Shown: piece after piece, positions 14,369 to 50,636 of the stretch
How positions within the stretch are numbered: the first letter of the stretch is position 1
Layout of the letters: every line of letters begins with the position of its first letter
Made by a program: the position numbers and the translations under genes
Assembly: GCF_000719955.1 (NCBI RefSeq)
Contig: NZ_JOII01000028.1
Coordinates: 22,039-86,038 of the forward strand
Reading direction: 5' to 3'
Origin: Streptomyces albidoflavus
GTDB lineage: Bacteria; Actinomycetota; Actinomycetes; Streptomycetales; Streptomycetaceae
DNA length: 64,000 nt
The notes under the pieces: model-generated
What the model was told of the DNA's origin: nothing
What the model saw: only the letters and a program-made list of their open reading frames with translations
Database searches by the model: none

Positions 14369-17300
14369 GTGGCGACGGAGATGATCGCAGGGCGGTTCCG
14401 GCTTCTGGGGGCTGTGGACTCGGGCAACATGGGTGAGGTCCACAGAGCCGAGGATCTTGATGCCGCCCCGGGCGACGCCGACCGCGTCGTGGCGGTCAAG
14501 CTGATCCTCCGGCGCCGGTCCGGCCTGCGGATCGACACGCACGGCGACACCAAGACCGTGGAACGGTTCGCCCGCGAGGTGCGGATCATGCAGACCTTCG
14601 GCCGGCACCCCAACCTCCCGCGCACGATCGCCGGGGGTGTGGACGAGACGAACGGCGGCCTGCCCTACCTCGCGATGGAGTTCCTCGACGGCCACCCCCT
14701 CGCAGACCTGGTCGCCGACGAGCCGCAGCTGCCGATCTCCTGGGCCGCCGCCATCGCCGCGCAGATGGCGGAGGGGCTCAAGGCCGCACACGTCGAGGGC
14801 GTCGTGCACCGCGACCTCAAGCCCCGCAACGTCATGCTCACCCGCGGTGGCCTCGTGAAGGTCCTCGACTTCGGCATGGGCCGGATCGTCGACGACCCGG
14901 ACGGCACCAAGCTCACCAGCACGGGCGTCACCGTCGGCACCGCCCGCTACATGGCACCCGAACAGTTCCAGGGCGGAGCCGTAACCCCGGCGGCGGACCT
15001 CTACGCCCTCGGCTGCGTCCTGTACGAGATGCTCCTCGGCGTACCGCCGTTCGTCGGCACCTCCGCGTACGAACTCGGCGAGAAGCACGTCCGTCAGGCA
15101 CCGAACCCGGTCCGGCTGGTCCGGCACGACATCCCCGAGGCGCTCGCCCGCCTCGTCGACCGCCTCCTCGCCAAGGACCCGGCGGACCGCCCCGAGAGCG
15201 CCGCCGCCGTACGGGACGCCCTGCTGCCGTTCGTCGCGCCCGCCGAACCGCTGCCCGCCTGGCGCGAGTTCGACCCGGTGGGCCGCCTCCTCCAGGACCG
15301 GTCCGCGCTCTCCACGCCCACGGCGCGGCAGGCTCCGGACGACCAGCCGCCCGCCCAGACCCGCCCACACACGTCCGGTATGGACGTCTTCGGCGTCCAC
15401 AGGGACCTGATCGACGAGTACCGCGCCTTCACCCAGGGCGGCACGATCATCCGTGACGAACGCGTCGCCGACTTCGTCCGGCGCGACCTCGACGCCAAGT
15501 CCCAGTGGCCCAACCCGTGGATCTCCCTCAACCCCTTCTTCGACTCCGCCGGCACCGTTGCCGAGCTCGCTTCGCAGGGCGTCCTCCACCCCGAGTGCGC
15601 GCGGATCTTCCAGGCGAAGAAGGCCAGGGGCGGCACCGTCTGCGACGGCCGCCCGCTCACCCTCCACCAGCACCAGCGCGAAGCCGTCGACGCCGCCCGG
15701 TCCGGGGCGTCCTACGTCCTCACCACCGGCACCGGCTCGGGCAAGTCCCTCTCCTACATCGTGCCCATCGTCGACAAGGTCCTCAGGGACCGGGAGACGG
15801 AGCCGAGAGGGACGGCCAAGAGAGTCCGCGCGATCATCGTCTACCCCATGAACGCCCTGGCCAACAGCCAGCTCAAGGAGCTGGAGAAGTACCTGAGGGA
15901 CGGCTACGGCGCAGGACGCGAGCCCGTCACCTTCGCCCGCTACACCGGCCAGGAGGACGACGCCGCCCGCAGGGAGATCCGTGACAACCCGCCGGACATC
16001 CTGCTCACCAACTACGTGATGCTGGAGCTGATGCTCACCCGCCCCGACGACCGCGACAGCCTCGTCCGGATGGCCAAGGGCCTCGAATTCCTCGTCTTCG
16101 ACGAACTCCACACCTACCGAGGCCGCCAGGGCGCCGACGTCGCCCTGCTCATCCGCCGTGTCCGCGAGGCGTGCCAGGCCGACCGTCTCCAGTGCGTCGG
16201 AACCTCCGCCACCATGTCCACCGAGGGCACGATCGACGAGCAGAAGAGCGTGGTCGCGGGCGTCGCCTCCAAGCTCTTCGGCACGAGGATCCGCACCGAG
16301 CACGTCATCGGCGAGACCCTGGTCCGCGCCACCGACCCGGCCCCCGACACCGTCCCTGCCGAGCGGCTGCGCACCACCGACGCGCCCCGTGCGTACGCGG
16401 ACCTGGTCCGCGACCCGCTCGCCCGCTGGATCGAGACCCGCTTCGGCCTGGCCACCGACACCCTCACCGACCGCCTCGTCCGCCAGAAGCCCGCCAAGAT
16501 CGAGGACGCGGCCGAGGACCTCGCCCGGGAGAGCGGCGTGTCCGTCGAGGACTGCGCCGCGGCTCTGCGCGCCACCCTGGAGGCCGGCTCGCAGGCCCGT
16601 CACCCCGTCACGGAACGCCCCCTCTTCGCCTTCCGCCTCCACCAGTTCCTCTCCAAGGGCGACACCGTCTACGTCACCCTGGAGGACCCGGAAAGCCGCC
16701 ACCTCACCCGTGACTACCAGCAGGTGCAGCCCGGCACCGACGGCAAGCTCCTCATCCCGCTCGCCTTCTGCCGGGAGTGCGGCCAGGAGTACCTGACGGT
16801 GTGGCGCACCGAGAGGGACGGAGAGGTCCGCTACGAGTCCCGCCGCGACACCTCCGCCACGGGCGGCAGGGCCGGCGACGGCTACCTCTACGTCGGCCGC
16901 CCGTGGCCCCGCTCGCTCGACGAGGCCGTCGCCGAGCGCAAGCTGCCGGAGTCGTGGCTGGAGCTCGACGACCGTGGTCAGGAAGTCGTCAGGAAGTCGT
17001 ACCGCGAGCGCGCGCCCCGCGCCGTGACCGTCGACCCCTATGGGTACGAGGGACGGGGCGACCTGGACGCCGCCTTCATCCCGGCCCCGTTCCGCTTCTG
17101 CATCCAGTGCTCGGTGTCCTACGAGCAGCCGCGTGGCAAGGACTTCGCGAAGCTCGCGACCCTCGACCAGGAAGGCCGGTCCTCCGCCACCTCCCTGGTG
17201 TCGGCGGCCGTCGTCCGCTCCCTCAAGGCCGTGCCCGAGGAAGCCCTCGACAAGGAGGCGCGCAAGCTCCTCACCTTCGTCGACAACCGCCAGGACGCCT

Positions 17301-20300
17301 CCCTCCAGGCCGGCCACTTCAACGACTTCGTCCAGATCACCCAGCTGCGCGGCGCGCTCTACCGGGCCGCCCTGGACGCCGGGGAAGAAGGCATCCACCA
17401 CGAGGAGCTGGCCACCCGCGTGGCGAACGCCCTCGCCCTGGACCCCGTCGAGTACACCGGCCAGTCGGACCTGCCGCCCGCCCTCGCCCGCAACGCGGCC
17501 AAGACCCTGCGTGACGTCATCGCCTTCCGTCTCTACCTCGACCTGGAGAGCGGCTGGCGCATCACCATGCCGAACCTGGAGCGGACAGGTCTGCTGACGA
17601 TCGACTACGCGGACCTCCAGTGGGTCGCCGAGCGTGACGAGCGCTGGCAGGACACGCATGCGGCGCTCCGCGGCGCCGACCCCGCCCTGCGCGCCGAGAT
17701 CACGCGGACGCTCCTGGACGACATGCGCCGCGAACTCGCCATCGACGTCCAGTACTTCCGCGACGACTTCGACGCCCTCCAGCGTGCCAGCGAGGAACGC
17801 CTCATCGACCCGTGGGTCCTCGGCAGGTCCGACGCGCCCAGGGTCAAGACCGCCTACCCGCAGCCCTCCAGCCCCGGCATGGACCGGTCCGGGCACTTCC
17901 TCTCGGCCCGCGGCAAGTTCGGCAAGTACCTGCGCCGCACCGCACCCACGGTCTTCGACGTGCGCGACGGCGTGAAGCTGGACAACACCGACCTCCAGAA
18001 GGTCATCGTGGACCTGCTGAAGGTGCTCGCGAAGGCCGGCCTGGTCACCGAGGTCAGTGCCGCCCCCCAGCGCGCCGGCCGCTTCCGCGCGCCGACCGGT
18101 CCCGCCGCCACCGGCTACCGGATCTCCGCCGCCTCCCTCATCTGGCGGGCCGGCCCCGGCGAGTCCGGCGCCCACGACCCCCTCACCCGCACCTACGCCA
18201 GCGGCGACGGGCCGCGCGTCAACACCTTCTTCCGTGACCTCTACCGCAACGCCGCCGCCGAACTGTCCGGCCTGTTCGCCCGTGAGCACACCGCCCAGGT
18301 CGACCCCGCCGAGCGTGAGCGCCGCGAAGAAGCCTTCAGCAAGGCCGAACTGAAGCTTCTCTACTGCTCCCCGACCATGGAGCTGGGCGTCGACATCTCG
18401 TCCCTCAACGCGGTCATGATGCGCAACGTGCCGCCCACCCCGGCCAACTACGCACAGCGCAGCGGACGCGCCGGCCGGAGCGGCCAGCCCGCCCTCGTCA
18501 CCACGTACTGCGCCACCGGCAACAGCCACGACCAGTACTACTTCCGTCGCTCCGAGCGCATGGTGGCGGGTGCCGTCGCCCCGCCGCGCCTCGACCTCGC
18601 CAACGAAGACCTCGTCCTCTCCCACCTCCAGGGCATCTGGCTCGCCGAGGCCGGGCTGAAGCTCGGCCGGGCCATTCCGCAGATCATCGACATCGCGTAC
18701 GACGAGAGCCTGGGCCGCCCGAACCCGGCGCTCCACCTCCACGACGACCTGTACGCGGCCTCCCGCGACGCCGACGCGCAGGCCCGCACGGTGGCGGCGG
18801 CCCACCGGGTCCTCGGCCCGTTGCTTGCCGACTTCGCCAGGACCGTCTGGTGGGACGAGCGCTGGATCGAGGACCGTGTCCGCACCGCCCCCGACCGCTT
18901 CGACCGCGCCTTCGACCGCTGGCGAGACCTCTTCCGGGCCGCCCTCGTCGACCAGTACGTCCAGAACAAGCGGGTCCTCGACCACACCCTCACGGAAGGC
19001 GACCGGCGGCGCGCCGTCGCCCGCCGCAAGGAGGCCGAGACCCAGCTCAACCTCCTGAAGAACGAGACCCCGGACAGCCGGTCCGTCCTCTCCGACTTCA
19101 ACCCCTACCGCTACCTCGCCTCCGAGGGCTTCCTGCCCGGCTACTCCTTCCCCCGCCTGCCGCTGGCCGCCTACATCCCGACCACCGGCCGTCGCCACGG
19201 CGACGGCGACTACCTCCAGCGCCCCCGTTTCCTCGCCATCCGCGAGTTCGGCCCCGGCGCGCTGATCTACCACGAGGGCGCTCGCTACCAGGTGACCCGC
19301 GTCCAGCTGCCCCCGGACTCCTCCGGTGACATCGCCACCACCGCGGCCACCCGCTGCAAGCACTGCGGCTACCACCACGATCCCGAGCAGCGCGCCGACG
19401 TCTGCGACATGTGCAAGGAGCCGCTCGGCGCCGCCGCCTACAACCTGCTGCACCTGCACACCGTCTACACCCAGCGCCGGGAGCGGATCTCCTCCGACGA
19501 GGAGGAGCGCCGCAGGGCCGGATTCCGGCTGGAGATCTCGTACCGCTTCCAGGACCACGGCATCCGCAAGGGCCGCCAGGACGCCCACGTCTCGGACCCG
19601 GCGGGCAGTCTCGCCACGATCTCGTACGGCGACTCGGCCACCGTCCGCATCACCAACAAGGGACGGCTGCGCGCCAAGGAGAACGAGCAGGACGGCTACT
19701 GGCTCGACCCCGCAAGCGGCCACTGGATGAACGAACGCGATGCCGCCGAGGCGTCCGGCGACTCCAGCGAGATGCCGGTCATCGACCCGGACGGCAACGA
19801 GAAGCGCCGCAGGAAGCGAGTCGTCCCCTTCGTCGAGGACCGCCGCAACATCCTCGTCGTCACCCTCGACGAGCCGCTGCCCGAACCCATCGCCCTCACT
19901 CTCATGTACGCCCTGGAGCGGGGCGTCGAGGCGGCGTTCGAGCTGGAGGACTCCGAGCTCACCAGCGAACTGCTCCCGCCCGACGACGGTCCCCGCAACC
20001 GCTTCCTGCTCACCGAGGCCGCGGAGGGCGGCGCCGGAGTCCTGCGCCGCCTCCAGGCCGAGCCCGGAGCGCTCGCCGTCGCCGCCCTCCGCGCCCTGGA
20101 GATCTGCCACTTCGACGAGCACGGAGTGGACCAGGCCAAGCAGCACTGCGCCCGCGGCTGCTACGACTGCCTGCTCACCTACGGCAACCAGCTCGACCAC
20201 GCGGCCATCGACCGCCACACCGTCGTCCACCTGCTGCGCCGCCTCGCCTCCGCCGTGTCCGAGCCCGAAGGGCGGGGCGAGTCCCCGACGGAGCAGCACC

Positions 20301-20680
20301 GGCGGCTCGTCGAGGAGCTGGGGCGAACGGCCCCGAAGCTCGCCGACACGCCGGCCGACGACGCCGACGACATGGCGCACACTCCCCTGGAGCAGACCCT
20401 CGTCAACTGGCTCAGGGACCATGGCCTGCGCCTGCCCGACGAGGGCCAGACCCTCGTCGGCACCGCCCTCCCCGACTTCGTCTACCACCTGCCCGGAGTC
20501 AACCTCGCCGTCTTCGTCGACGGGCCGGACAGGGAGGAGGACGCCACCCGGGACGAGGACGCCGAGGAGCGCCTCTACGACGCCGGCTGGGGCGTCGTCC
20601 GCTTCCCAGCCGACCCCGCCGACTGGGACGCCGTCGTCGCCCGCCACGCCCGCTACTTCGGCGGCCCCGCCGCCTCCTGA
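14369..20680 (+). CDS. Ser/Thr kinase fused to YprA/MrfA-type DEAD/H helicase with DUF1998
   Basis: A giant 2103-residue fusion. Residues about 8-290 are a Hanks-type kinase that looks active: VAVKL lysine, HRDLKPRN (147-154), DFG (167-169), GTARYMAPEQ. After a linker comes an SF2 helicase: Walker A TTGTGSGK (Lys459), DELH (578-581), GTSATMS (about 610), C-terminal domain ending QRSGRAGRSGQ (from 1363). Further on are a CxxC-CxxC zinc site (about 1660-1680), DUF1998 with CARGCYDCLLTYGNQ (from 1927) and an endonuclease-like tail. YprA/DUF1998 helicases are core parts of DISARM (DrmA/DrmB), Druantia (DruE) and Dpd. I chose GTG 14369 (AAGGGA 8 bases upstream); a start at 14237 would overlap the promoter. 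The gene is 44 bases from the SNF2 gene. The kinase fusion suggests phospho-control of helicase or partners; this is inferred. Confidence 0.9.
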   Translation: MATEMIAGRFRLLGAVDSGNMGEVHRAEDLDAAPGDADRVVAVKLILRRRSGLRIDTHGDTKTVERFAREVRIMQTFGRHPNLPRTIAGGVDETNGGLPYLAMEFLDGHPLADLVADEPQLPISWAAAIAAQMAEGLKAAHVEGVVHRDLKPRNVMLTRGGLVKVLDFGMGRIVDDPDGTKLTSTGVTVGTARYMAPEQFQGGAVTPAADLYALGCVLYEMLLGVPPFVGTSAYELGEKHVRQAPNPVRLVRHDIPEALARLVDRLLAKDPADRPESAAAVRDALLPFVAPAEPLPAWREFDPVGRLLQDRSALSTPTARQAPDDQPPAQTRPHTSGMDVFGVHRDLIDEYRAFTQGGTIIRDERVADFVRRDLDAKSQWPNPWISLNPFFDSAGTVAELASQGVLHPECARIFQAKKARGGTVCDGRPLTLHQHQREAVDAARSGASYVLTTGTGSGKSLSYIVPIVDKVLRDRETEPRGTAKRVRAIIVYPMNALANSQLKELEKYLRDGYGAGREPVTFARYTGQEDDAARREIRDNPPDILLTNYVMLELMLTRPDDRDSLVRMAKGLEFLVFDELHTYRGRQGADVALLIRRVREACQADRLQCVGTSATMSTEGTIDEQKSVVAGVASKLFGTRIRTEHVIGETLVRATDPAPDTVPAERLRTTDAPRAYADLVRDPLARWIETRFGLATDTLTDRLVRQKPAKIEDAAEDLARESGVSVEDCAAALRATLEAGSQARHPVTERPLFAFRLHQFLSKGDTVYVTLEDPESRHLTRDYQQVQPGTDGKLLIPLAFCRECGQEYLTVWRTERDGEVRYESRRDTSATGGRAGDGYLYVGRPWPRSLDEAVAERKLPESWLELDDRGQEVVRKSYRERAPRAVTVDPYGYEGRGDLDAAFIPAPFRFCIQCSVSYEQPRGKDFAKLATLDQEGRSSATSLVSAAVVRSLKAVPEEALDKEARKLLTFVDNRQDASLQAGHFNDFVQITQLRGALYRAALDAGEEGIHHEELATRVANALALDPVEYTGQSDLPPALARNAAKTLRDVIAFRLYLDLESGWRITMPNLERTGLLTIDYADLQWVAERDERWQDTHAALRGADPALRAEITRTLLDDMRRELAIDVQYFRDDFDALQRASEERLIDPWVLGRSDAPRVKTAYPQPSSPGMDRSGHFLSARGKFGKYLRRTAPTVFDVRDGVKLDNTDLQKVIVDLLKVLAKAGLVTEVSAAPQRAGRFRAPTGPAATGYRISAASLIWRAGPGESGAHDPLTRTYASGDGPRVNTFFRDLYRNAAAELSGLFAREHTAQVDPAERERREEAFSKAELKLLYCSPTMELGVDISSLNAVMMRNVPPTPANYAQRSGRAGRSGQPALVTTYCATGNSHDQYYFRRSERMVAGAVAPPRLDLANEDLVLSHLQGIWLAEAGLKLGRAIPQIIDIAYDESLGRPNPALHLHDDLYAASRDADAQARTVAAAHRVLGPLLADFARTVWWDERWIEDRVRTAPDRFDRAFDRWRDLFRAALVDQYVQNKRVLDHTLTEGDRRRAVARRKEAETQLNLLKNETPDSRSVLSDFNPYRYLASEGFLPGYSFPRLPLAAYIPTTGRRHGDGDYLQRPRFLAIREFGPGALIYHEGARYQVTRVQLPPDSSGDIATTAATRCKHCGYHHDPEQRADVCDMCKEPLGAAAYNLLHLHTVYTQRRERISSDEEERRRAGFRLEISYRFQDHGIRKGRQDAHVSDPAGSLATISYGDSATVRITNKGRLRAKENEQDGYWLDPASGHWMNERDAAEASGDSSEMPVIDPDGNEKRRRKRVVPFVEDRRNILVVTLDEPLPEPIALTLMYALERGVEAAFELEDSELTSELLPPDDGPRNRFLLTEAAEGGAGVLRRLQAEPGALAVAALRALEICHFDEHGVDQAKQHCARGCYDCLLTYGNQLDHAAIDRHTVVHLLRRLASAVSEPEGRGESPTEQHRRLVEELGRTAPKLADTPADDADDMAHTPLEQTLVNWLRDHGLRLPDEGQTLVGTALPDFVYHLPGVNLAVFVDGPDREEDATRDEDAEERLYDAGWGVVRFPADPADWDAVVARHARYFGGPAAS

Positions 20681-20724
20681 CCACGGAACCGACCGACCAC
20701 CCGAGGACCCCGAGGACTCACCCG

Positions 20725-23634
20725 ATGACGCTCACCTACTCCGCCGGTTCCCTGGTCACCGCCCGAGGCCGCGAATGGGTCGTGCTCCCCGAGAGCGCCC
20801 CCGACATGCTCGTCCTGCGCCCGCTCGGCGGTTCCGACGACGACATCGCCGCCGTCTTCCCCGCCTTCGAGGACGTCAGAGGCGCCGAGTTCGCCCCGCC
20901 GTCCGCCGCCGACCTCGGCGACCACCGCGCCGCCGGGCTGCTGCGCTCCGCCCTCCGCATCGGCTTCCGCTCCGGAGCCGGCCCCTTCCGTTCCCTCGCC
21001 GGCATCGCCGTCGAACCCCGCGCCTACCAGCTCGTCCCGCTCCTCATGGCGCTGCGGCAGAGCACCGTACGGCTCCTCATCTCCGACGACGTCGGTATCG
21101 GCAAGACCGTCGAGGCCGGCCTCATCGCGAGCGAACTCCTCGCCCAGGGCGAGGCACGCGGCCTTGCCGTCCTTTGCTCACCGGCCCTCGCCGAGCAGTG
21201 GCAGGAGGAGCTGCGCACCAAGTTCGGCCTCGATGCCGAACTCGTCCTCGCCTCCACCGTCTCCCGCCTGGAGCGCGGCCTGGACCTGGGGCAGTCGCTC
21301 TTCGACAAGTACCCCCACGTCATCGTCTCCACCGACTTCATCAAGTCCACCCGCCACCGCGACGACTTCGTCAAGCACTGCCCCGACCTGGTGATCGTCG
21401 ACGAGGCTCACACCTGCGTCGTCGCCGACGACACCACCTCCACGCAGAACCAGCTCCGCTACGAGCTGCTGCGCCGCGTAGCCGAGGACGCCGAGCGTCA
21501 CCTGCTCCTCGTGACCGCCACCCCGCACAGCGGCAAGGAGTCCGCCTTCCGCAACCTTCTCGGCCTGGTCAGGCCCGAACTGGCAGGCACGGACCTGGAC
21601 TCCGACCGGGGCCGACGACTCCTCGCCCAGCACTTCGTCCAGCGCAAGCGCGCCGACGTACGCCAGTACCTGACGACCGAGGACGGCCTCGGCGACGACA
21701 GCCTGGCCGAGCGGACCGCGTTCCCGTCCGACCGCTTCTTCAAGGACGAGACCTACAAGCTTTCACCGGCCTACCGCGCCCTCCTCGACGACGCCATCGC
21801 CTATGCGAGCGAGCGCGTCGAGGCCGCCGGCAGCCAGGGCAAGCGCGAGGCCCGTATCGCCTGGTGGTCCGCGATCGCCCTGCTCCGCTCCCTCGTCTCC
21901 TCCCCGCGCGCCGCCGCCCAGACCCTCCGTACGCGCTCCGCCGCCGCGGCCGCCGCCAGCGCCGAGGAAGCCGACCGCTTCGGCGCGCCCCTCACCCGTG
22001 ACGCGGCCGACAGCGACAGCCTGGAGGGCATGGACGTGGCCCCCGGCGCCGAGACCGACGACGCGGGCGCCCGCCTCGCCGAACTCGCCGACCGGGCCGC
22101 CGCCCTGGAGGGCCCGGAAGGCGACCTCAAGCTGAAGGCCCTGGTCAAGCACCTCAAGGCGCTGCTCGCCGACGGCTACCACCCGATCGTCTTCTGCCGC
22201 TACATCCCCACCGCCGAGTACGTCGCCGAGCACCTGGGCGGCAAGCTCGGCAAGAAGACCGTCTTCCGCGCCGTCACCGGCACCCTCTCGCCCCAGCAGC
22301 GCATCGAGCGGATCGAGGAGCTGGCGGAGGAGGCCGGGCAGGACCCCGCCGCCCGCCGCGTCCTCGTCGCCACCGACTGCCTCTCCGAGGGCGTCAACCT
22401 CCAGCACCACTTCGACGCCGTCGTCCACTACGACCTCGCCTGGAACCCCACCCGCCACGACCAGCGCGAGGGCCGCGTCGACCGCTACGGGCAGCAGCGC
22501 GACGAGGTCCGGGTCATCACCCTGTACGGCAGCGACAACGGCATCGACGGCAAGGTCCTCGACGTCCTCATCAAGAAGCACCGCCAGATCAAGAAGGACC
22601 TCGGCATCTCCGTCTCCGTCCCCGACGAGACCTCCTCCGGCGTCACCGACGCCATCGTGGAGTGGCTGCTGCTGCGCGGCCGGGAGGGCGAGCAGGGCAC
22701 CCTCTTCGAGGCAGACTCCTTCCAGCAGAGCTTCGCCGACCTGGAGGCCGACTGGAAGTCCGCCGCCGAACGCGAGACCCGCTCCCGCTCCCGGTTCGCC
22801 CAGCGCTCCATCCACCCGGAGGAGGTCGCCCGCGAGGTCCTCGCCATCCGCGACACCCTCGGCCGCGCCGACGAGGTGAACGACTTCGTACGGACCTCCC
22901 TCGCGGCCCTGGAAGCCCACCTGGTGGAGGCGGGCGACGGCTCCGGCGACTTCACCGCCGAGGTCAGCGGCACCTCCGCCGGCCTGCGCGACGCCCTCGC
23001 CCCCGTCGTCGGAGCCACCGCCGTCGAAGGCGCCCGCCCCATCCCGTTCCGTACGACCTCGGCCGTGGCCCGGGGCGAGGCCGCCCTCGTCCGCACCGAC
23101 CCCGTCGTCGGTGCCATCGCCGCCCACGTCCTGAACTCCGCCCTCGACAGCCAGGCCGACGGCCGCCGCCCGGCCCGCCGCTGTGGTGTCGTCGCCACCC
23201 GCGCCGTCGACACCCGCACGACCCTGCTCCTCGTCCGCTACCGCTTCCACCTCACGCTGCCCTCCCGGCAGGGGGAGAAGCAGCTCGTCGCCGAGGACGC
23301 CCGCCTCCTCGCCTTCCAGGGCTCCCCGAAGAACGCCGTGTGGCTGCCCGAGGACCAGGCCCATGCCCTCCTCACTGCCCAGGCCGCCGACAGCGTCGAC
23401 CCCGACCACGGCGAGGCCATGGTGACCCGCGTCCTCGGCCAGCTCCCCGCCGTCACCGACCACCTCGAGCAGTTCGGCGGCACCCTCGCCACCGAACTCC
23501 ACGAGTCCCACCGGCGCGTCCGCCGCGCCTCCGACGAGATCGTCCGGGGCCTGCGGGTCACCGCCCAGAAGCCGGCCGACGTCCTCGGCGTCTACGTCTA
23601 CCTGCCCGCCGCGTCCGGAGAGGCCGCCGTCTGA
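20725..23634 (+). CDS. SNF2-family helicase, DrmD-like
   Basis: A 969-residue SWI2/SNF2 ATPase expected to translocate on double-stranded DNA. The N-terminal block (AGSLVTARGREWVVLP) resembles DISARM DrmD. Motif I is DDVGIGKT (Lys127), motif II DEAH (226-229), motif III TATPHSG, and the C-terminal RecA domain has CLSEGVNLQHHFDAVVHYDLAWNPTRHDQREGRVDRYGQ. The last third is a long helical region of unknown role. ATG 20725 has GAGGA upstream. The stop TGA shares one base with the start of the methyltransferase gene (TGATG), so translation is coupled. An SNF2 helicase beside an adenine methyltransferase and a DUF1998 helicase is the class 1 DISARM set, here with the DrmA and DrmB functions merged into one kinase-bearing protein. 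Confidence 0.88.
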   Translation: MTLTYSAGSLVTARGREWVVLPESAPDMLVLRPLGGSDDDIAAVFPAFEDVRGAEFAPPSAADLGDHRAAGLLRSALRIGFRSGAGPFRSLAGIAVEPRAYQLVPLLMALRQSTVRLLISDDVGIGKTVEAGLIASELLAQGEARGLAVLCSPALAEQWQEELRTKFGLDAELVLASTVSRLERGLDLGQSLFDKYPHVIVSTDFIKSTRHRDDFVKHCPDLVIVDEAHTCVVADDTTSTQNQLRYELLRRVAEDAERHLLLVTATPHSGKESAFRNLLGLVRPELAGTDLDSDRGRRLLAQHFVQRKRADVRQYLTTEDGLGDDSLAERTAFPSDRFFKDETYKLSPAYRALLDDAIAYASERVEAAGSQGKREARIAWWSAIALLRSLVSSPRAAAQTLRTRSAAAAAASAEEADRFGAPLTRDAADSDSLEGMDVAPGAETDDAGARLAELADRAAALEGPEGDLKLKALVKHLKALLADGYHPIVFCRYIPTAEYVAEHLGGKLGKKTVFRAVTGTLSPQQRIERIEELAEEAGQDPAARRVLVATDCLSEGVNLQHHFDAVVHYDLAWNPTRHDQREGRVDRYGQQRDEVRVITLYGSDNGIDGKVLDVLIKKHRQIKKDLGISVSVPDETSSGVTDAIVEWLLLRGREGEQGTLFEADSFQQSFADLEADWKSAAERETRSRSRFAQRSIHPEEVAREVLAIRDTLGRADEVNDFVRTSLAALEAHLVEAGDGSGDFTAEVSGTSAGLRDALAPVVGATAVEGARPIPFRTTSAVARGEAALVRTDPVVGAIAAHVLNSALDSQADGRRPARRCGVVATRAVDTRTTLLLVRYRFHLTLPSRQGEKQLVAEDARLLAFQGSPKNAVWLPEDQAHALLTAQAADSVDPDHGEAMVTRVLGQLPAVTDHLEQFGGTLATELHESHRRVRRASDEIVRGLRVTAQKPADVLGVYVYLPAASGEAAV

Positions 23635-30006: not shown

Positions 30007-32099
30007 CCGCGACCGGGATCGATTTCGGTACCACCAACTCCGTGGTGGCCCAATGGCTGGGCGATGACGTCGACGTGCTGTCACTGGACGCCCACCACAT
30101 CGACGCCGACTGGCGTCACCCCGGCTTCGAGTACCTCTTCCCGTCGGTGGTGGGCATGAGCTCACTGCGCCGGGGAGCGTTGTTCGGCTGGGAGGCCAAG
30201 CTCCGCTCCGAAGAGGCGGCCGAGGCCTGCAAACGACTGCTCAAGAGCGACGAGTACGTCACGATCCACGGCCGCAGGTTCGCGGCCACGACGGTGGCGG
30301 CCGGTGTCTTCCAGGCCATGCGCAAGGGAGCGGAGCACAACCTCACCGCCATCGACCAGGCCGTGATCACCGTGCCCGCCAACGCCACGGGCGCCGCCCG
30401 CTACCGCACGCGCGCCGCCGCGCGGTTCGCCGGCATCGAGGTCCTGGCGCTGCTCAACGAGCCGACGGCGGCAGCGATCTCGTACGTGCACGAGCTGCGA
30501 GAGGCTCGAACCATCCTGGTCTTCGACTGGGGTGGCGGCACCATCGACGTCACCGTGCTCGACTACCAGGACGGGTTCTTCGAGGAGCTCGCTTCACGGG
30601 GCGTGACCGAGCTGGGGGGCCTGGAGATCGATCGTCGCCTGCGTGACCTCGTCCTCGAACGGGCTCCGGCGCGATCGGCGTGGACGCCCGCGCAGGAGCG
30701 GCAGTTCGGGCTGGACGTGGAGCGCAGCAAGATCCGCCTGTCCTCCGAGGAGTCCGTCACCATCAGGACTCCGGACGGCGACACCGTCGAGGTGTGGCAG
30801 GGGGAGTTGGAGGACGCAATCACCGACCTCGTGGACCGCGCTCTCGCGCCGGTTCAGCAGTGTCTCACCGACCTCCACATGGCTCCTCTGGACGTGGACG
30901 CGGTGCTGATGATCGGTGGCACGAGCCAGATCCCGAGTGTGCGGGCCGCGGTCGCCGAGGTCATGCAGCAGCAGCCCGTCGAGGTCGATCTGTGCGATCC
31001 CATGACTGCGGTCGCCCGCGGCGCCTCCATCGCGGCAGCCGTGCTGTCGGGGGAGGCTGATGGCGTGATCCAGGTGGCGACGAGTCACGCCCTGGGCACG
31101 GTCGTCACGGACGACACCGGACAGCGGGCGTTCAGCCAGATCATCCCGCGCAACTCACCCCTGCCGTGGAAGGAGCGCAAGAGCTACACGCCTCGCCGGG
31201 ACAACGCACGCAGCCTTGCCGTGGAGATCTGGGAAGGAGACCCCGACCGTCCCCTCGACCACGCTGACAACGTGCAGCTGACGGACCTCCGCCTCACCTA
31301 CCAGAATCCCCGGGCCCGCGAGGACTCCCGCTTCCTGCTGGAGTACACGTACGACACCAACGGGCTCCTGCACGTCAAGGCGACCCTTGAGCGCACCGGC
31401 GAGGAAGTGCTGAACGAGGAGATCAAGAGCTTCAGCTCCGGTGGTCCGACGCCGGCCGTGCGCAAGGAACTCGATGATCTGCTCGCGGGCAACACGGTCA
31501 CCACGCTCCTGCCGACGCAGACGCGGAGGCGATCCGCGGGCTCGGCTTCCAAGGCGCTCGTGGTCGACGGCTCCAACCTGGCGTGGATCGGCAGGTCGCC
31601 CCGACGACCCGGTGTATACGGCAGGGACGACCGGCCGTCCTACGCCCAACTGCTGTCCGCGCGCGACGCCCTGGCATCGCGGTATCCCGATGCCGTGCTC
31701 CACGTGGTCGTCGACGCCACCTTCCGGCACAAGGTCGCGGAGGAGGAACGCGCCGCGGTGGACTCGGCGCTCGCCACAGGGAACCTCATCCAGCCCCCGG
31801 CCGGAACCGAGGGCAAGGGCGACGCGCTGGTCACGGCGATCGCGCAGGACACGGACGGAATCGTCGTCACCAACGACAACTACACCGAACTGCAAGGCAG
31901 GTACCCCTGGTTGCGGGACAAGGAGCGGGTGCTCGGGGCCACCCTGACCCAGGTCATGTGGGTGTTCACGCCGCGCACCTGCGTACCACCCCGTCATCGG
32001 ATCGTACGAGCGGAGACGTTCCAGCAGTCGCGGGCCCTGATTCCTCCGAGCCCACATCCACTGCCCGAGTTCAGGTACCACCGCCCTCACGAGGAGTAG
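30003..32099 (+). CDS. Hsp70-family protein fused to NYN/PIN-like ribonuclease domain
   Basis: A 698-residue fusion. Residues 1-350 form an Hsp70 ATPase domain with GIDFGTTNSVVA, VPANATGAARYRTRAAARFAG, LLNEPTAAAISY, VFDWGGGTIDVTVLDY and MIGGTSQIPSVR. Residues about 360-490 form a shortened substrate-binding beta region (LLEYTYDTNGLLHVKATLER). Residues about 518-665 form a NYN domain like that of the RNase Zc3h12a/MCPIP: LVVDGSNLAW (Asp522), VVVDATFR, GKGDALVTAIA and VVTNDNYTEL, giving four conserved acidic positions. The protein should couple ATP-driven binding of misfolded or viral protein to RNA cleavage; that link is inferred. Start GTG 30003 overlaps the preceding stop. With the two genes before it, it forms what looks like a dedicated chaperone cycle inside a defence operon. 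Confidence 0.85.
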   Translation: MTATGIDFGTTNSVVAQWLGDDVDVLSLDAHHIDADWRHPGFEYLFPSVVGMSSLRRGALFGWEAKLRSEEAAEACKRLLKSDEYVTIHGRRFAATTVAAGVFQAMRKGAEHNLTAIDQAVITVPANATGAARYRTRAAARFAGIEVLALLNEPTAAAISYVHELREARTILVFDWGGGTIDVTVLDYQDGFFEELASRGVTELGGLEIDRRLRDLVLERAPARSAWTPAQERQFGLDVERSKIRLSSEESVTIRTPDGDTVEVWQGELEDAITDLVDRALAPVQQCLTDLHMAPLDVDAVLMIGGTSQIPSVRAAVAEVMQQQPVEVDLCDPMTAVARGASIAAAVLSGEADGVIQVATSHALGTVVTDDTGQRAFSQIIPRNSPLPWKERKSYTPRRDNARSLAVEIWEGDPDRPLDHADNVQLTDLRLTYQNPRAREDSRFLLEYTYDTNGLLHVKATLERTGEEVLNEEIKSFSSGGPTPAVRKELDDLLAGNTVTTLLPTQTRRRSAGSASKALVVDGSNLAWIGRSPRRPGVYGRDDRPSYAQLLSARDALASRYPDAVLHVVVDATFRHKVAEEERAAVDSALATGNLIQPPAGTEGKGDALVTAIAQDTDGIVVTNDNYTELQGRYPWLRDKERVLGATLTQVMWVFTPRTCVPPRHRIVRAETFQQSRALIPPSPHPLPEFRYHRPHEE

Positions 32100-32101
32100 T
32101 G

Positions 32102-35068
32102 ATGACTGGCGGGGCGGTGAACGACAGGACGAGCCTCAGAGCCGAGATGCTGGCGCTGCTGCTCGAGCCGTTGGGGGTGGATGCCATGGTCGGACCGGCC
32201 GCACTCCAGCGATTCGCCAAGGAGGTGGACGCGGTCGCCCAGGCGCGCGGGTGTGCCGGCCTGCCGCCGTCCGGGAGCACGCTTCCGTGGGTGTCCGACG
32301 CGGTGGCGGCGTGCGTCGAGGAGCACGAGCTGGCCCGCCTGACAATGGCTGGGGGCCGGGCTCCGGCGCCGGACGGGGGCAGATCTCTCCGGGAACTGAA
32401 GCGGCTGGAAGGGTTGCGGACTCATCTCCAGGCGCTGGAGGGCGTGCCGGTGGAAGCGCTTCGGGCGGACGCCGCGGCGGTGGCGGCCGCGGAACGGCTG
32501 CTGCCCGAAGTCCTGGAGCCGTGCCGTCGTGCGGACCGGGAATGGCCGGAGGAGATCTGGCGCTCGATCCGTGAGATCGACATCGAACCCGCGCTGGCCG
32601 ACCTGAGCCGTCGACGAGGAGGCCGGAAGGCGGCGGAGGCGCGCGAGCTCGTGCTCAGGCACAGTGCCGCGGCGGCCCGGGATCTACGGAACGGGGATCT
32701 GGTGCCGCTGCTGGAGAAGGCGCGGGACTTCGTCGCAGCGGAGGAGTCGTACGAGGCGGTCCTGTCCGAGCGGCCGCAGTGGTGGCGCTGGCTCGCACCG
32801 GACGCGCGGTTCGGGTTCAGATCGGAGCGGCGCGCCGCCCTGCTCTGGGCGATCGAGGCCCGTGACACCGGTGCCGTGTCCGGAAGTACGGTGGACATGC
32901 TCGCGGACGACAGCGTGCGGGCGGTGATCGAGCACGGGCTCGCGACGGCGCCCGTGAACACGGCCGTGTCTCCGGCCGCGCCCGCCGCGAGCTCGGCCGC
33001 ACGGCTCACGGCGGGGCTGCTGGCGGTCGCCTCCCGGACCGACGTCAACGAACTGCGGGCGTTCGAGTCCTGGTACACGAAGAACGTCGAGTCGTTCGAC
33101 CGCGTGGCGGCGGCCATGGACCTGTGGCGAACCGAACCGAATCTCCGCGAGGCCCTCGGGGCCCTGGTCGGCGAACTCGCGTCCGGGGCGGTGGACACGA
33201 GCCGGTCGGCCTACCGCGACATCCAGACCGCTCTCCGGGAGGAGGCCGAGGCCCGTCCTTCGCGAGCGCCGTACTCCGCGCACGCGATCGAGAGCGAGGA
33301 CCTCGTCGGGGTCATCCGCCGCATCGGAGCGCTCGAACGCGAACTGCGCGATGCCGTACGGGTCATGCCCACGGCGAGAGGCAGGCTGCGCGTGGCCATC
33401 GCCGGAAGGACCAAGTCCGGGAAGACCACGCTGCGCAAAGCGCTGACCCGTGAGGCGGACCGGACCGGGATCGGGCGAGGGGCGCACCGCACCACGCGGG
33501 AGACCTCCGCGTTCCACGTCGGCTCTGTGACGTACCTTGACACGCCCGGCGTCGCCGCGAAGGACGACGACCTCGACGCCACGCGTGCTCGGGCCGCGTG
33601 CGACAGCGCCGACGCGGTGATATGGAACTACGCCGACACGCTACGTGAGGAGGAGTCCGCCGAGCTCCAGCGACTCCTCCTCACGGGCAAACCTCTGCTC
33701 GCTGTCGTCAATGTGAAGGGAAAGGTCGACGAACCGCACCGTCTTGAACGCTTCGCCAAGGATCCGGAGAGAGAGTTCGCGTCGGCGACGGGTCACACGG
33801 TTCGGATCGAGCAGGTCTCCGCAGCGGTCGGCGTCACGTCGCCCGTCGTCCTCCCGGTCCACTCCGGTGCCGCGCACGAAGCGTTGTCCACAGCGGACCG
33901 CGAGCTGGGGGACAGGGCCCTTCGGGCGAGCAGGTTGCCCGAGCTGGAGCAGTCCCTCACCCGGCTCCTGGCCGAGCGTGCGATTCCGCTTCGTGCGGTT
34001 CGCCTGGCCGAGGACGTGCGGGCGCCGCTCGCGGCGTTCCACGACCGGCTGATCGAGGAACTCCCCGGGATCGATCTCGCGCTTGCCGAACTCGCATGCT
34101 CGACGCCGCGTGACCGGGCAGAGTCGCTGGAAGCCTTCCGGACAGCGGGCCGGGACACGCGTGACCTACTCGAAGCCGAGCGCCACCGCGCCAAGGAGCG
34201 GGTGTCGGAGGTGGTTCGGGACCTGGGCGGCGTGGCTGACGCGCAGCGGTGGAGCGACTTCGTCACCGGTTTGGACCTGGAGGGTCTTCTCTCCGGTCTC
34301 GGGGACACGTTCGAGCAGGAGGCGCGGAAACGGGGGATGCTTCTGCGCGTGCGGGCGAGCGCCACGGACCATCAGGACGACGCGCAGCCGCGTGTACGAC
34401 CGCGTCCTGATCTGAAGGAGCAGGCCGCGAGCCTGGGCGCGGCGGCCGTCAAGGGGGCGGCGACGGCCCTTCTGAGCTCCGTCGCCGCCAAGGGGATCCC
34501 TAAGAAGCTCGCGGTCCCTCCTCCCGCGGCGACGTTGGTCTACGCGGTGGAGGGCCTGGCCGGAGCGGCGAAAGCGGTGAGCGGTGAGGTTGCCCGCGCG
34601 CGGCGGGCGAAGGACGGGTGGACCAGCACGACCACGACCGAGGCTGAGGCCTGCCTCGATGACCTGTTCGACGGACTTGTGGCATGGTCGGCTCGTATCA
34701 CCGATGACGCGACGGCTCAGATCGATGCCCGGTTCGAGGCGCGGTCCGCAGACATCAGGGTCACGCGGGAGCGGTTCGAGCGACTCTGCGGGCTGCGGAC
34801 GGCCGTGCGGTCCGCCCTCGACGCGATCGACCTCGTCCTGGCGCGCCGGCTCCTGGCTCTCGCGGGAGGGGACCCGGCGGCGATCCGTCGGGCACGTCGG
34901 ACACCGGGAGTCGAACTTCGTGTCTGGGCCGACGCGTCCCGCGTCGCGGGCGTGCGGTCGTGTCTGCGGGACCAGTTCGTGGACGTCCTCACCGAACGGA
35001 TCGAGATCCGCGCGGATCTCGGATGGCTCGGCACCCTCGAAGGAACCGAAGGGAACACAGATGGCTGA
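32102..35068 (+). CDS. Large dynamin-like GTPase 1
   Basis: A 988-residue protein with a central GTPase domain: G1 AIAGRTKSGKTT (Lys441), G3 YLDTPGV, and G4 probably VVNVKGK in place of the usual NKxD. The N-terminal 420 residues and C-terminal ~350 residues are helical. The latter contains an Ala/Gly-rich, moderately hydrophobic stretch (LGAAAVKGAATALLSSVAAKGIPKK) that could touch membrane. Bacterial dynamin-like proteins act in pairs in tandem genes; some protect cells against phage by remodelling membrane. ATG 32102 has GAGGAG six bases upstream. It starts 2 bases after the Hsp70-NYN stop and overlaps GTPase 2 by 8 bases. Confidence 0.75.
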   Translation: MTGGAVNDRTSLRAEMLALLLEPLGVDAMVGPAALQRFAKEVDAVAQARGCAGLPPSGSTLPWVSDAVAACVEEHELARLTMAGGRAPAPDGGRSLRELKRLEGLRTHLQALEGVPVEALRADAAAVAAAERLLPEVLEPCRRADREWPEEIWRSIREIDIEPALADLSRRRGGRKAAEARELVLRHSAAAARDLRNGDLVPLLEKARDFVAAEESYEAVLSERPQWWRWLAPDARFGFRSERRAALLWAIEARDTGAVSGSTVDMLADDSVRAVIEHGLATAPVNTAVSPAAPAASSAARLTAGLLAVASRTDVNELRAFESWYTKNVESFDRVAAAMDLWRTEPNLREALGALVGELASGAVDTSRSAYRDIQTALREEAEARPSRAPYSAHAIESEDLVGVIRRIGALERELRDAVRVMPTARGRLRVAIAGRTKSGKTTLRKALTREADRTGIGRGAHRTTRETSAFHVGSVTYLDTPGVAAKDDDLDATRARAACDSADAVIWNYADTLREEESAELQRLLLTGKPLLAVVNVKGKVDEPHRLERFAKDPEREFASATGHTVRIEQVSAAVGVTSPVVLPVHSGAAHEALSTADRELGDRALRASRLPELEQSLTRLLAERAIPLRAVRLAEDVRAPLAAFHDRLIEELPGIDLALAELACSTPRDRAESLEAFRTAGRDTRDLLEAERHRAKERVSEVVRDLGGVADAQRWSDFVTGLDLEGLLSGLGDTFEQEARKRGMLLRVRASATDHQDDAQPRVRPRPDLKEQAASLGAAAVKGAATALLSSVAAKGIPKKLAVPPPAATLVYAVEGLAGAAKAVSGEVARARRAKDGWTSTTTTEAEACLDDLFDGLVAWSARITDDATAQIDARFEARSADIRVTRERFERLCGLRTAVRSALDAIDLVLARRLLALAGGDPAAIRRARRTPGVELRVWADASRVAGVRSCLRDQFVDVLTERIEIRADLGWLGTLEGTEGNTDG

Positions 35069-36803
35069 CGGTGGTCCGGTCGACGCGCCCACGATCGACG
35101 GGCGCCGAAGCGCTCTCGTACTCGCGCTGGCCGCACGTGCCGAAGAGGTCCTGGGCGCTCACCCTCGCACTCGCGCCCTGACCACGAGCCTGCCTCGTGC
35201 GGACACGAGCCCGCTGCGGATCGCACTGCTGGGCCCGTACAGCGCGGGGAAGTCCACGCTCGTCGCGGCACTGCTCCGGCTCCCGTCGGCCGACATCGTC
35301 GATCTCGTCGACGCGGCGCCCAAGACGCACGAGGCGACGTCGTACGAGTGGAACGGAGCGACGCTGGTCGACCTGCCCGGGACGCTGTCGGGTGTCGACG
35401 GGCACGCCGATGCGGCGCGGGGCGGCGTTCGTGGTGCGGACGCGCTGATGATCGTGACAACGAGCGAACTGCCGGGCGAAGCAGAGACCAGGACGATTCT
35501 GCGGGCTCTCGACGCTGACGGGTTCGCTGACCGGAGTGTGGTCGTCGTCAACAAGATGAACGCCGAGAACAGCGATCGCGATGTCGTCCTCGACGAGATC
35601 CGCGGGCGCCTCGGGCCTTTCGCCGACCGCGTCCCGATCGTCCCCACCGACGCACGCGACTACATCGACGCGCTCCATGACCCCACTCTCCCGCCCGATC
35701 AGCGACAGTGGCTTGTCGCGGAGAGCGGTATCGACGCTCTGGCGGCCGAGTTGCGGAGAATGACCGCGCCAGGTGTCAGCGGTGTCCGGCCCGAGGCTCA
35801 GGCCTTCGAACTCCTTCGAGTGCTGGCGGACGCCGAGCGGCAGTGGGTGCTGGACGGCGAGGAACTCGATGCCGCGGAGAGCGCGAAGAAGGTCGAGGAG
35901 TCGATCTACCGGACGAAGGAGCGTGCGCTGAGCGCCCTGTTGAGAGGTAGTGAAGTCGTCGCTTCCAGAATCACGACGGCCGGAGACCGGGCCGCTGCCG
36001 GCGTCTCGGAGAAGGACGGGGTCGTCCCCGACCGCGTCACTCGTGCCGTCCAGGAGCAACTGGAGCGTGCGAGCAATGAGTTCGACGCGAGCTTCTCTTC
36101 GTCGGTGAGGACGGCGTTCGACGCGCTGGTCGCCGAGTACGGAACCGGTGTGCCCGAGCCTGAATCCTGGGGGAACGACCTCGAAGCACGCGAGACGACG
36201 TTCGACGGGTCCCCGGATGGCACGCCACCGTTGACACAGGGGGTCAAGGAAGCGGCGAAGAAGGCCGCGAAGGTGGGTACCGAGAAGGCGGGCGAGTGGA
36301 TCGGGAAGATCGCGGACGGCGGTATCGGGCCGGGAAGCGCGGCCTCCGCCGTCGTGGAAAAGCTCAGCAAGAACCGGGTGGGCCGGAAGATTCTCGACGC
36401 CGGAGGGAAAGTCACCAACGGCGCGGAGAAGTTCAAACCGTGGGGCAAGACCAAGGCGGCCGGCAAGGTAGCCGGTACGGCCCGCAAGGTGCAGTGGGTG
36501 CTGGCAGTCACGGGGCCGTTGATGGACCTGACGAGCGTCGCGCAGGACCAGAGCAAGTGGATGGCGCTCAACAAACGGCGGAAGCAGATCAAGGATCACT
36601 TCGACGAGAAAGCGCGCGAACAGCGGACCGCTCTCACCGATGCCGGTGAGCGGTACCTGAGCGAGTGGATCACCGAGGTGGAACGGTCGCTCAGCGGTCT
36701 CACGAAGCGGGGCTCGGACATCAAAGCCGAGCGTGAAGCGGCCCTGACGGCGATCAAGGGCCTCCGCGACGAGGCCGAGAAGCTGGTCGGGCCGACCCGC
36801 TGA
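35061..36803 (+). CDS. Dynamin-like GTPase 2
   Basis: A 580-residue GTPase. G1 is ALLGPYSAGKST (Lys64), G2 probably the Thr of KTHEATSYEW, G3 LVDLPGT and G4 VVVNKMN. The layout (N-terminal GTPase, long helices, basic/hydrophobic C-terminal stretch near 440-500 with WVLAVTGPLMDL, then a coiled tail) is that of bacterial dynamin-like proteins. It overlaps GTPase 1 by 8 bases, with AAGGGA 6 bases before its ATG, so the two are co-translated and probably heteromeric. It is the last gene of the long defence operon and is followed by a hairpin. A membrane role is inferred from family; nothing here shows it directly. Confidence 0.8.
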   Translation: MADGGPVDAPTIDGRRSALVLALAARAEEVLGAHPRTRALTTSLPRADTSPLRIALLGPYSAGKSTLVAALLRLPSADIVDLVDAAPKTHEATSYEWNGATLVDLPGTLSGVDGHADAARGGVRGADALMIVTTSELPGEAETRTILRALDADGFADRSVVVVNKMNAENSDRDVVLDEIRGRLGPFADRVPIVPTDARDYIDALHDPTLPPDQRQWLVAESGIDALAAELRRMTAPGVSGVRPEAQAFELLRVLADAERQWVLDGEELDAAESAKKVEESIYRTKERALSALLRGSEVVASRITTAGDRAAAGVSEKDGVVPDRVTRAVQEQLERASNEFDASFSSSVRTAFDALVAEYGTGVPEPESWGNDLEARETTFDGSPDGTPPLTQGVKEAAKKAAKVGTEKAGEWIGKIADGGIGPGSAASAVVEKLSKNRVGRKILDAGGKVTNGAEKFKPWGKTKAAGKVAGTARKVQWVLAVTGPLMDLTSVAQDQSKWMALNKRRKQIKDHFDEKAREQRTALTDAGERYLSEWITEVERSLSGLTKRGSDIKAEREAALTAIKGLRDEAEKLVGPTR

Positions 36804-45347: not shown

Positions 45348-45736
45348 CCCTTACCCCCGACGACCTGGCCGCGGCCGCCCGTCATCTGCTCCTCCCTCCC
45401 CCCGGTGTTCCCCACACCCTCGCGCCGGGACTCCGCGCCCGAGCCGCCGCCGCCCTGCTCCGGCTGGCCCTGGACGAGGCCATGGACGGCTTCTGGCGGC
45501 GGGTCAGTCCCGCCATGGCGCACAGCCGTGGCCGTACCAAGGCGCTCTGTCTGGAGTGGTACGCCCCGTGCTCCGTGGCCCGCCAGTGGTACGCCGTGTG
45601 GTCCGCGCTCAGCGCGGCCTGCCACCACCACACGTACGAACTCCCGCCCACCCCGGGCGAGGTCAGGGCCTGGCACGACGACGTCGTCGAACTGCTCGCC
45701 GCCCTCCGCCAAGGACCCGAGCGGACCGAAGCCTGA
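45344..45736 (+). CDS. Small helical protein, partner of hook ATPase
   Basis: A 130-residue all-helical protein of unknown function. It shows LRARAAAALLRLALDEAMDGFWRR and WYAVWSALSAACHHHTYELPPTPGEVRAWHDDVVELLAALR. The helix lengths and the SxxCHHHxYEL stretch recall HEPN-type or SAV_6107-type helical bundles, but no Rx4-6H motif is clear. The start ATG overlaps the ATPase stop (ATGA), so the proteins are probably made together and interact. It could be an inhibitor, adaptor or second HEPN subunit. Confidence 0.6.
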   Translation: MTLTPDDLAAAARHLLLPPPGVPHTLAPGLRARAAAALLRLALDEAMDGFWRRVSPAMAHSRGRTKALCLEWYAPCSVARQWYAVWSALSAACHHHTYELPPTPGEVRAWHDDVVELLAALRQGPERTEA

Positions 45737-45760
45737 CCGGTGCACCGAAAGGACCACGGC

Positions 45761-50592: not shown

Positions 50593-50636
50593 GATCGTTT
50601 CGGCCGCGCCGCACGCCACGAGGTAAGGAGCCCACC

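Follow-up and report, generated by a model that had tools for sequence, protein, structure and literature searches.

A 64,000-nucleotide stretch of the Streptomyces albidoflavus genome (positions 22,039 to 86,038 of contig NZ_JOII01000028.1, assembly GCF_000719955.1), hereafter called the window, carries an eight-gene operon that is probably a composite anti-phage locus, in which a core derived from Type I of the ARMADA defense systems (g1-g3) would be combined with a module built around an Hsp70-RNase protein (g4-g6, the trio) and a pair of dynamin-like GTPases (g7-g8). The operon consists of three modules and is not one system. The trio is a portable accessory module that adjoins ARMADA, Druantia IV, Type I restriction-modification (RM), PglW and kinase-DrmD-methylase loci in other genomes. 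In relatives of the operon, deletions have removed the core except for remnants, and the trio and/or the GTPase genes stay in place.

A recurrent operon of eight genes

The operon (positions 14369-36803 of the window, plus strand; Table 1) belongs to a genome of 7.08 Mb, G000 in our set (window, G000:C28:22039-86038). Its eight open reading frames (ORFs) have a G+C content at third codon positions typical of coding DNA. The largest intergenic gap, between g1 and g2, is 44 nucleotides, and most neighboring pairs overlap, by 1 to 8 nucleotides at every junction other than g1-g2 and g6-g7. The latter is a 1-nucleotide overlap if g7 starts at GTG 32099 or a 2-nucleotide gap if it starts at ATG 32102. 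An initial annotation, made from the sequence alone, had described eight coupled genes over this interval, and all of them are present. The same eight genes occur in identical order in five further loci (L001, which is the same contig as G143, L002, L003, L004 and G226), showing that the run is no chance neighborhood. The kinase of L002 to L004 was confirmed in ORFs of 2119 to 2130 amino acids at matching contig positions.

Domains were assigned with Pfam, PADLOC and NCBIfam. In a pattern check, the motifs of the kinase, the helicases, the methyltransferase (NPPW), the Hsp70, the NYN RNase and the GTPases appeared intact, and the C-terminal Vsr-like motif of g1 did not. No family in the three collections matched g4 or g5, the latter having only a sub-threshold match (E 0.035). 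Homologues of g0, the gene upstream of the operon, are also found 5′ of the core in L039, L089 and L091 and 5′ of a core remnant in L184 (G307).

Table 1. Genes of the operon and neighboring features in the window
Feature	Position	Strand	Assignment
g1	14369..20680 (GTG at 14369; alternative start ATG 14381)	+	2103 amino acids; Pkinase + DEAD/Helicase_C + MZB; Ser/Thr kinase (residues ~1-300), YprA/DruE-like helicase, MZB/DUF1998, degenerate C-terminal Vsr-like domain (ArmC-like)
g2	20725..23634	+	SNF2/RapA/BrxHII/DrmD-like helicase (ArmA-like)
g3	23634..27707	+	PglX/DrmMI-like N6-adenine DNA methyltransferase (ArmB-like); Eco57I/N6-methyltransferase domains
g4	27704..29362	+	All-helical TPR-like; J-domain-like but HPD-less C-terminal segment (residues ~426-480)
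g5	29359..30006	+	GrpE-fold, nucleotide-exchange-factor-like
g6	30003..32099	+	Hsp70 (nucleotide-binding domain and beta part of the substrate-binding domain, residues 1-470) with NYN/Zc3h12a-like RNase (residues ~518-649) replacing the alpha-helical lid
g7	32102..35068 (or GTG 32099)	+	LeoBC-like GTPase; PADLOC LeoBC 123 bits, MMR_HSR1, G1/G3 motifs
g8	35061..36803	+	LeoA-like dynamin-related GTPase; PADLOC LeoA 158 bits
g0	12524..14197	+	SWIM zinc-finger protein immediately 5′ of the operon; PADLOC candidate PDC-S62; membership uncertain
Second defense cluster	42963-52793	+	SMC/LmuB-like ATPase, 556-amino-acid protein with HEC-07 match, AAA_5/DUF4357 protein, McrC, GajB-like UvrD helicase

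A kinase-fused core related to ARMADA Type I

ARMADA was named for YprA helicases of a Druantia-related branch that are accompanied by a BrxHII/RapA-like helicase and a PglX-like methyltransferase. According to the main text of that report (Bell et al. 2025, PMC12458937, preprint), Type I usually has its YprA gene in first place, and a Vsr nuclease predicted to be active forms the C-terminal end of the helicase; a BrxA-like insert, a beta-barrel ZBM, and MarR-like and coiled-coil HTH domains are further features of the type. Genes g1-g3 agree with this description in gene order and domains. The best PADLOC helicase models for g1 were those of DruE (342.9 bits), and the protein contains several CxxC pairs as well as an MZB domain at residues 1845-1935, that is, the MrfA Zn-binding domain, or DUF1998 in the terms of the preprint. 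The g2 protein matched DrmD of PADLOC (282 bits) and DrmD and RapA of NCBIfam (313.7 and 117.1 bits), all below curated cut-offs, and over its full length it matched PADLOC model PDLC02853 (1831 bits). The latter is labeled "DpdE", so automatic annotation may give this label to ARMADA helicases. The g3 protein shows motif I (DPACGSG) and motif IV (NPPW) of methyltransferases and matches DrmMI and PglX. The initial annotation had correctly recognized a restriction-like core with a fusion of kinase and YprA-family helicase, next to a DrmD-like SNF2 helicase and a DrmMI-like methyltransferase, and it had rightly anticipated that surveys of YprA helicases might already include the system. The fusion of DrmA and DrmB functions that it proposed is not of the DISARM type; the best helicase models are those of DruE.

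The same core was found in Deinococcus radiodurans MP1 and on Nocardioides pNOCA01. The former locus (L230, 8231-19727), in a model organism of the laboratory, is surrounded by insertion sequence elements and has no kinase, and its methylase is annotated as two ORFs. On pNOCA01 (L228, 1-20252), a plasmid typed as conjugative, DISARM drmA and drmB lie a few genes 5′ of the core.

A search with part of the g1 helicase across 392 genomes of the genus revealed two clades. The first comprises 53 loci in 52 genomes, with 69 to 100% identity and ORFs mostly longer than 2100 amino acids; the second comprises 16 loci in 16 genomes, with 49 to 57% identity and ORFs near 1770 amino acids. One or both forms occur in 64 of the 392 genomes. 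We retrieved 66 of these 69 loci, the other three being those of G000, G143 and G226. In the first, fused clade, the kinase is part of the helicase ORF at 48 of the 50 retrieved loci (L089-L138), in addition to the window, G143, G226 and L002-L004. Of the two exceptions, L114 lies at a contig edge, and L109 has a split ORF whose first piece carries the kinase. The unfused loci group together in a single clade with a support of 1.0, the six apparent exceptions being truncated sequences (L001-L004, L109 and L114), and in 10 of the 16 a separate kinase gene lies divergently just 5′ of the helicase gene. In a class-level set the helicase was present in 29 of 374 genomes, at 30 places (E ≤ 1e-60). 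Fifteen of these were retrieved: the kinase is fused in all seven that have ORFs longer than 2080 amino acids and come from Actinomycetes outside the genus, and the remaining eight have shorter ORFs (one of them, L201, being from the genus itself). The kinase therefore marks one branch of the helicases and is common in the other, without being universal.

The kinase-YprA fusion is a new feature relative to the published ARMADA Type I. The words kinase, Hsp70, NYN, dynamin, chaperone and Streptomyces have no match in the main text of PMC12458937. No description of such a fusion was found among the matches listed in the literature searched, a scope that left out most subscription journals and supplements.

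Two other associations were seen around these cores. Fourteen kinase-ARMADA loci (L095, L097, L099-L102, L104, L106, L108, L109, L111, L112, L115 and L116) have a common divergent upstream gene. In L102, the only one scanned, its product of 1130 amino acids contains sigma-70 regions 2-4 and an MzaA match. A gene for a pPIWI_RE-type Argonaute-like protein, scanned in L142 only, lies beside the unfused core with divergent kinase in L139, L140, L142 and L143.

The C terminus of g1 contains a Vsr-like stretch, PDFV...FVDGP...RD, from which the HH of canonical homologues is absent. We compared 84 C termini; L132, one of the 50 fused rows of the genus, is truncated, and L109 was not included. A histidine directly behind FVDGP occurs in none of these 50, in six of the seven fused rows from outside the genus (as VH), and in 18 of 27 unfused rows, 16 of which have HH, including those of D. 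radiodurans MP1 and Nocardioides pNOCA01. By a looser count, any histidine within eight residues, there were 18 positives among the 57 fused rows and 20 among the 27 unfused ones. Decay of the Vsr-like nuclease motif in this clade probably leaves the core dependent on a partner effector. With our own gene caller, a co-directional gene starts at most 200 bp after g3 at 32 of 49 fused loci and, in the unfused clade, at 4 of 14 (p = 0.03 in a Fisher test, shared ancestry ignored). The genes 3′ of the core fall in several clusters, including a PASTA-domain protein (L128) and a 423-amino-acid protein without Pfam match, and we infer that the position after the methylase gene is a variable slot for partners.

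A chaperone-RNase trio with changing partners

The g6 protein contains an HSP70 domain (PF00012, 226 bits in Pfam), and its NYN domain was matched as RNase_Zc3h12a. The phosphate-motif positions sampled in the Hsp70 domain are invariant in 37 of 37 rows (T11 being T or S). The NYN RNase is present in 30 of these rows, and there its acidic residues are mostly conserved (D522 in 30 of 30, D571 and D607 in 25 each, D625 in 27). The g5 protein has the GrpE fold and qualifies as a GrpE-type exchange factor. PADLOC-DB 2.0.0 contained no model matching the trio at E ≤ 0.001, and a single chance-level match at E ≤ 0.1. The literature search described above gave no account of an Hsp70-NYN fusion among the matches listed.

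Homologues of g4 are present in 31 of the 392 genomes. We sorted the trio loci by their neighbors, using a panel of neighbor proteins and stretches of up to 20 kb, and assigned a partner in 23 of them (Table 2). As the panel was built from those same neighborhoods, this tally is descriptive and no test of association. Eight trio loci have no clear partner (G020, G111, G142, G216, G221, G334, G355 and G376); in their vicinity we noted the PADLOC candidate PDC-M07A (G020), a GajB-like helicase (G216), a DndB-like fragment (G334) and, about 9.5 kb away, a IIG-like methylase (G376).

Table 2. Partners of the trio in the genus
Neighboring genes	Loci	Genomes and remarks
Intact kinase-ARMADA	5	G000, G143, G226 (trio downstream, one operon); G144 (divergent); G299 (trio upstream, same strand, g4 divided between two reading frames)
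ARMADA remnant	1	G164
Type I-like HsdM genes	6	G246, G381, G333, G196, G131, G017; HsdR in all but G017; HsdS seen in G131; DndB-like gene in G246, G381, G333, G017; G017 stretch ends after one HsdM
UvrD-like helicase	2	G339 (with HsdM pair), G352 (stretch stops short of this position)
Kinase + DrmD + IIG methylase + N6 methylase	2	G055, G234
Druantia IV	6	G181, G172, G240, G043, G179, G308; G240 also adjoins kinase and DrmD homologues
PglW	1	G108

In all six Druantia IV loci, the order DruF, DruL, DruE, J-like, GrpE-like, Hsp70 is kept, the Hsp70 there being devoid of NYN. These runs (L209, L210, L212, L213, L214 and L216) are tightly spaced in L209, L210 and L213; L209 was scored with PADLOC, and the other five were called by similarity to it. 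As published, Druantia type IV comprises only DruE, DruF and DruL, and Hsp70 and chaperone have no match in the main text of that article (PADLOC 2021, PMC8565338). Nor did our literature search yield, among the matches listed, a description of the trio with Druantia IV. In a tree of the Hsp70 proteins, the ARMADA-adjacent trios fall in three lineages (the window clade, support 0.999; L056 with L049, L051 and L052, 1.0; L055 with L207, 0.996), and the RM-adjacent and the kinase-DrmD-adjacent trios in two lineages each.

Deletions of the core were seen in three relatives, L005, L006 and L007 (the last being the same contig as G164). A short frame there consists of the first 50 to 62 codons of the kinase, fused in frame with the last part of the methylase, of which 98, 60 and, by eye, about 14 residues are left, respectively. 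The junctions differ, and the remnant is followed in each case by the trio and the GTPase genes, the trio being intact in L006 and L007. In G307 (L184) an in-frame junction connects the start of the kinase with the end of g6, and g0 and the GTPases are retained. What remains in G136 (L188) is the start of a kinase and the tail of a methylase, out of frame. A search with the methylase tail gave matches in 74 of the 392 genomes. Eleven further places outside the known cores were retrieved, seven with a tail of 30 to 96 residues only (tail remnants L217-L223) and four with a longer methylase stretch; none has g1 and none a close g2. The g8 GTPase was detected in 10 of the 392 genomes (E ≤ 1e-15), without a g4 match in G307, G147, G016 and G136. 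In G131 and G334 it lies about 40 and 80 kb from the trio, as a mere fragment in G334. The core remnants, the GTPases without g4 and the trios without a core indicate that the modules come and go separately.

Possible mechanism and alternative explanations

From the gene content, domains, conservation, modularity, partner swapping and motif loss observed, we infer the biochemical activities, a role for the kinase and a coupling between modules as follows. The PglX-like g3 enzyme would mark self DNA by N6-adenine methylation, and the RapA-like and YprA-like helicases would translocate on unmarked DNA, their engagement being probably gated or signaled by the fused kinase. Partner effectors would occupy the variable slot behind the methylase gene. 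In the trio, the TPR/J-like g4 protein may bind clients, g5 may act as the exchange factor, and g6 would be an Hsp70 with NYN as its lid. The trio would most likely function as a client- or infection-sensing switch that frees the RNase or aims it at phage or host RNA, providing an RNA-targeting arm beside the DNA-targeting core, and the g7-g8 pair may act at membranes. Precedents by analogy for a chaperone switch are the Hsp70 and HEPN proteins of CoCoNuT systems, as described in the text of PMC11090510, and bNACHT25, which is reported to need host DnaJ for detecting phage coat protein (PMC12169576). More tentatively, the trio could be a novel type of shared immune sub-module, a dedicated chaperone-RNase relay that plugs into several unrelated DNA-targeting systems (kinase-ARMADA, Druantia IV, Type I RM whether or not accompanied by a DndB-like protein, PglW and kinase-DrmD-methylase loci), senses folding or virion-assembly cues and cleaves RNA; in kinase-ARMADA it might be one of several exchangeable effectors compensating for nuclease decay.

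A number of observations weigh against a composite locus working in this way. Forty-eight of the 53 fused-clade cores lack an adjoining trio, in stretches that extend some 3 kb past the core at either end (L109, L111, L114 and L132 being cut by contig ends); the core therefore does not require the trio. In G111, G142, G181, G196 and G240 both are present but apart. The occurrence of the fused-clade core in 10 of the 31 trio genomes versus 52 of the 392 overall (hypergeometric p = 0.0035) speaks for a link between the two, but this value, like the p of 0.03 above, ignores shared ancestry and the clustering of defense genes. The persistence of the trio and the GTPases after loss of the core argues for independent functions; the record of L005 has a broken g4 and g6, and that of G299 a split g4. 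The HPD motif is absent from 25 of 25 aligned g4 rows (two being repeats of one locus), and the J-like helical register, though the best of seven segments against a single DnaJ, is not significant, so that the J-domain reading, drawn from sequence comparison, is weak and only suggestive. No kinase was found near 14 unfused loci, namely the eight shorter-ORF class-level loci and the remaining six of the genus set. The divergent kinases are 37 to 42% identical to the fused one, and kinases elsewhere in three Streptomyces genomes 37 to 46%; as they are no closer than many other Streptomyces kinases, we claim a shared neighborhood for the fused and divergent forms but not a common origin. The Vsr motif is also lost in 9 of the 27 unfused rows, and its loss is thus not tied to the kinase. 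Finally, a profile of seven sequences (A3) matched no Vsr chain in the PDB, and the FVDGP/histidine motif is one that we take to be the catalytic motif of Vsr, following the domain assignment of the ARMADA authors.

Some of these facts would also fit a hitch-hiking scenario, possible though in our view doubtful, in which the trio and the GTPases are independent genes of defense or stress response, placed under one promoter or in one island with the core but not working with it. It accounts for the trio and GTPases without core in L005-L007, for the four genomes with GTPases but no g4 match, for the many cores without a trio nearby, and for the McrC-bearing second cluster that begins 6 kb downstream and makes the locus a defense island. 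It does not readily explain the stop-start overlaps and near-zero gaps through g2-g8, the conservation of the eight-gene order in six genomes, the fact that trios of three Hsp70 lineages adjoin ARMADA in three different arrangements, or the six-gene run with Druantia IV in six of six loci. The recurrent company of very large YprA-family helicases and the presence of an Hsp70 alone, without NYN, in the Druantia IV versions would be expected of an assembly chaperone that folds or loads giant helicases (g1, 2103 residues; DruE, 1872 residues) and is neither sensor nor effector. This is rather unlikely, as most homologous giant helicases of the genus have no trio, L006 and L007 keep an intact trio despite deletion of the helicase, Type I RM genes are accompanied by the trio as well, and most of the Hsp70 rows carry an RNase with mostly conserved acidic residues.

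That all eight genes form one obligate new defense system, as the initial annotation had strongly suggested, is very improbable. The identical order in six genomes speaks for it, as may the 43 clusters of g4 proteins at ≥75% identity (P0004-P0046), but the modules separate freely, and loci with one module alone largely refute it. The downstream five genes are conserved as an operon in these six genomes and absent at most other cores, and each of their modules also occurs apart; with the trio adjacent at only 5 of 53 fused-clade cores, they are not a set part of the system. As for a new defense type, the core is ARMADA Type I-like, while the kinase fusion and the trio have no published description that we found. 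Least probable of all, a stress-response or DNA-maintenance operon unrelated to defense could be imagined from the housekeeping relatives of the Hsp70/GrpE and dynamin genes; the patchy distribution of core (52 of 392 genomes) and trio (31 of 392), their frequent decay, the RM, Druantia, PglW and McrC genes that accompany them, and the anti-phage activity measured for ARMADA Type II, as given in the main text of PMC12458937, argue otherwise.

If the trio is a true plug-in, it connects protein homeostasis, through Hsp70 and GrpE, to restriction-type immunity and represents a module for defense-finding tools that PADLOC-DB 2.0.0 lacks. The kinase fusion points to a gating of ARMADA by phosphorylation, a form of control that Pgl/BREX2 and MADS may share, and effector swapping is a specific hypothesis raised by the decay of the Vsr motif along with the variable slot behind the core.

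Comparison with known defense systems

The five downstream genes are not of the kinds associated with DISARM, Druantia, Dpd, BREX and Pgl, in agreement with the initial annotation. For DISARM, there are no separate DrmA and DrmB, helicase and MZB being in one ORF, and the PLD nuclease that would correspond to DrmC is not among the Pfam matches of g1-g8. No Druantia partner of DruE (DruA-D, DruF/G/M, DruH or DruL) was found in the PADLOC matches of g4-g8 or among the best 25 for g2 and g3. Apart from the "DpdE" match of g2, the matches listed contained for Dpd only weak DpdJ/DpdF helicase cross-matches of g1, and for BREX type 2 and Pgl neither PglZ nor PglY. PglW, MAD6 and PD-T4-6 are Ser/Thr kinases tied to methylation-based or other phage defense. 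Their hidden Markov models matched g1, with scores far below the curated cut-offs for PglW (46.9 bits, cut-off 990) and MAD6.

The g7 and g8 proteins score as LeoBC and LeoA in PADLOC, and in Pfam g8 is above the cut-off for MMR_HSR1 and Dynamin_N and below it for DLP_helical; its NCBIfam LeoA score (46.6 bits) is far below the cut-off of 325. Unlike in Leo, the GTPase pair lies here 3′ of restriction and chaperone genes. Compared with the DnaK-DnaJ-GrpE machine, an Hsp70 with conserved nucleotide motifs and a GrpE-type factor are present, but the HPD of the J-domain is absent. CoCoNuT Type III similarly has an Hsp70-like protein (CnuD) and a HEPN RNase beside DNA restriction systems; as described in the text of Bell et al. 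2024 (PMC11090510), where DnaJ, GrpE and NYN have no match, the Walker A-like motifs of CnuD are degenerate and its partners are McrB/McrC. The trio, by contrast, has an Hsp70 with conserved motifs and a fused RNase, together with a GrpE-like partner.

With ARMADA Type II, the operon shares the three enzymes, including the methylase NPPW, and an RNase-bearing fourth protein. The gene order differs, however, and the RNase is here an NYN on Hsp70 and not a RelE-like domain on a GajB-like helicase. No PADLOC or Pfam model for such a helicase with an N-terminal RelE-like RNase matched g4-g8. An Escherichia coli Type II cluster protects against phage without killing the cell, according to the main text of the same preprint that defines both types (PMC12458937). 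Compared with ARMADA Type I as described there, the operon has in common the order of YprA, RapA/BrxHII-like and PglX-like genes, the fusion of DUF1998 to the helicase and the C-terminal Vsr-like domain, and it differs by an added N-terminal Ser/Thr kinase, a lost Vsr histidine motif and five additional downstream genes.

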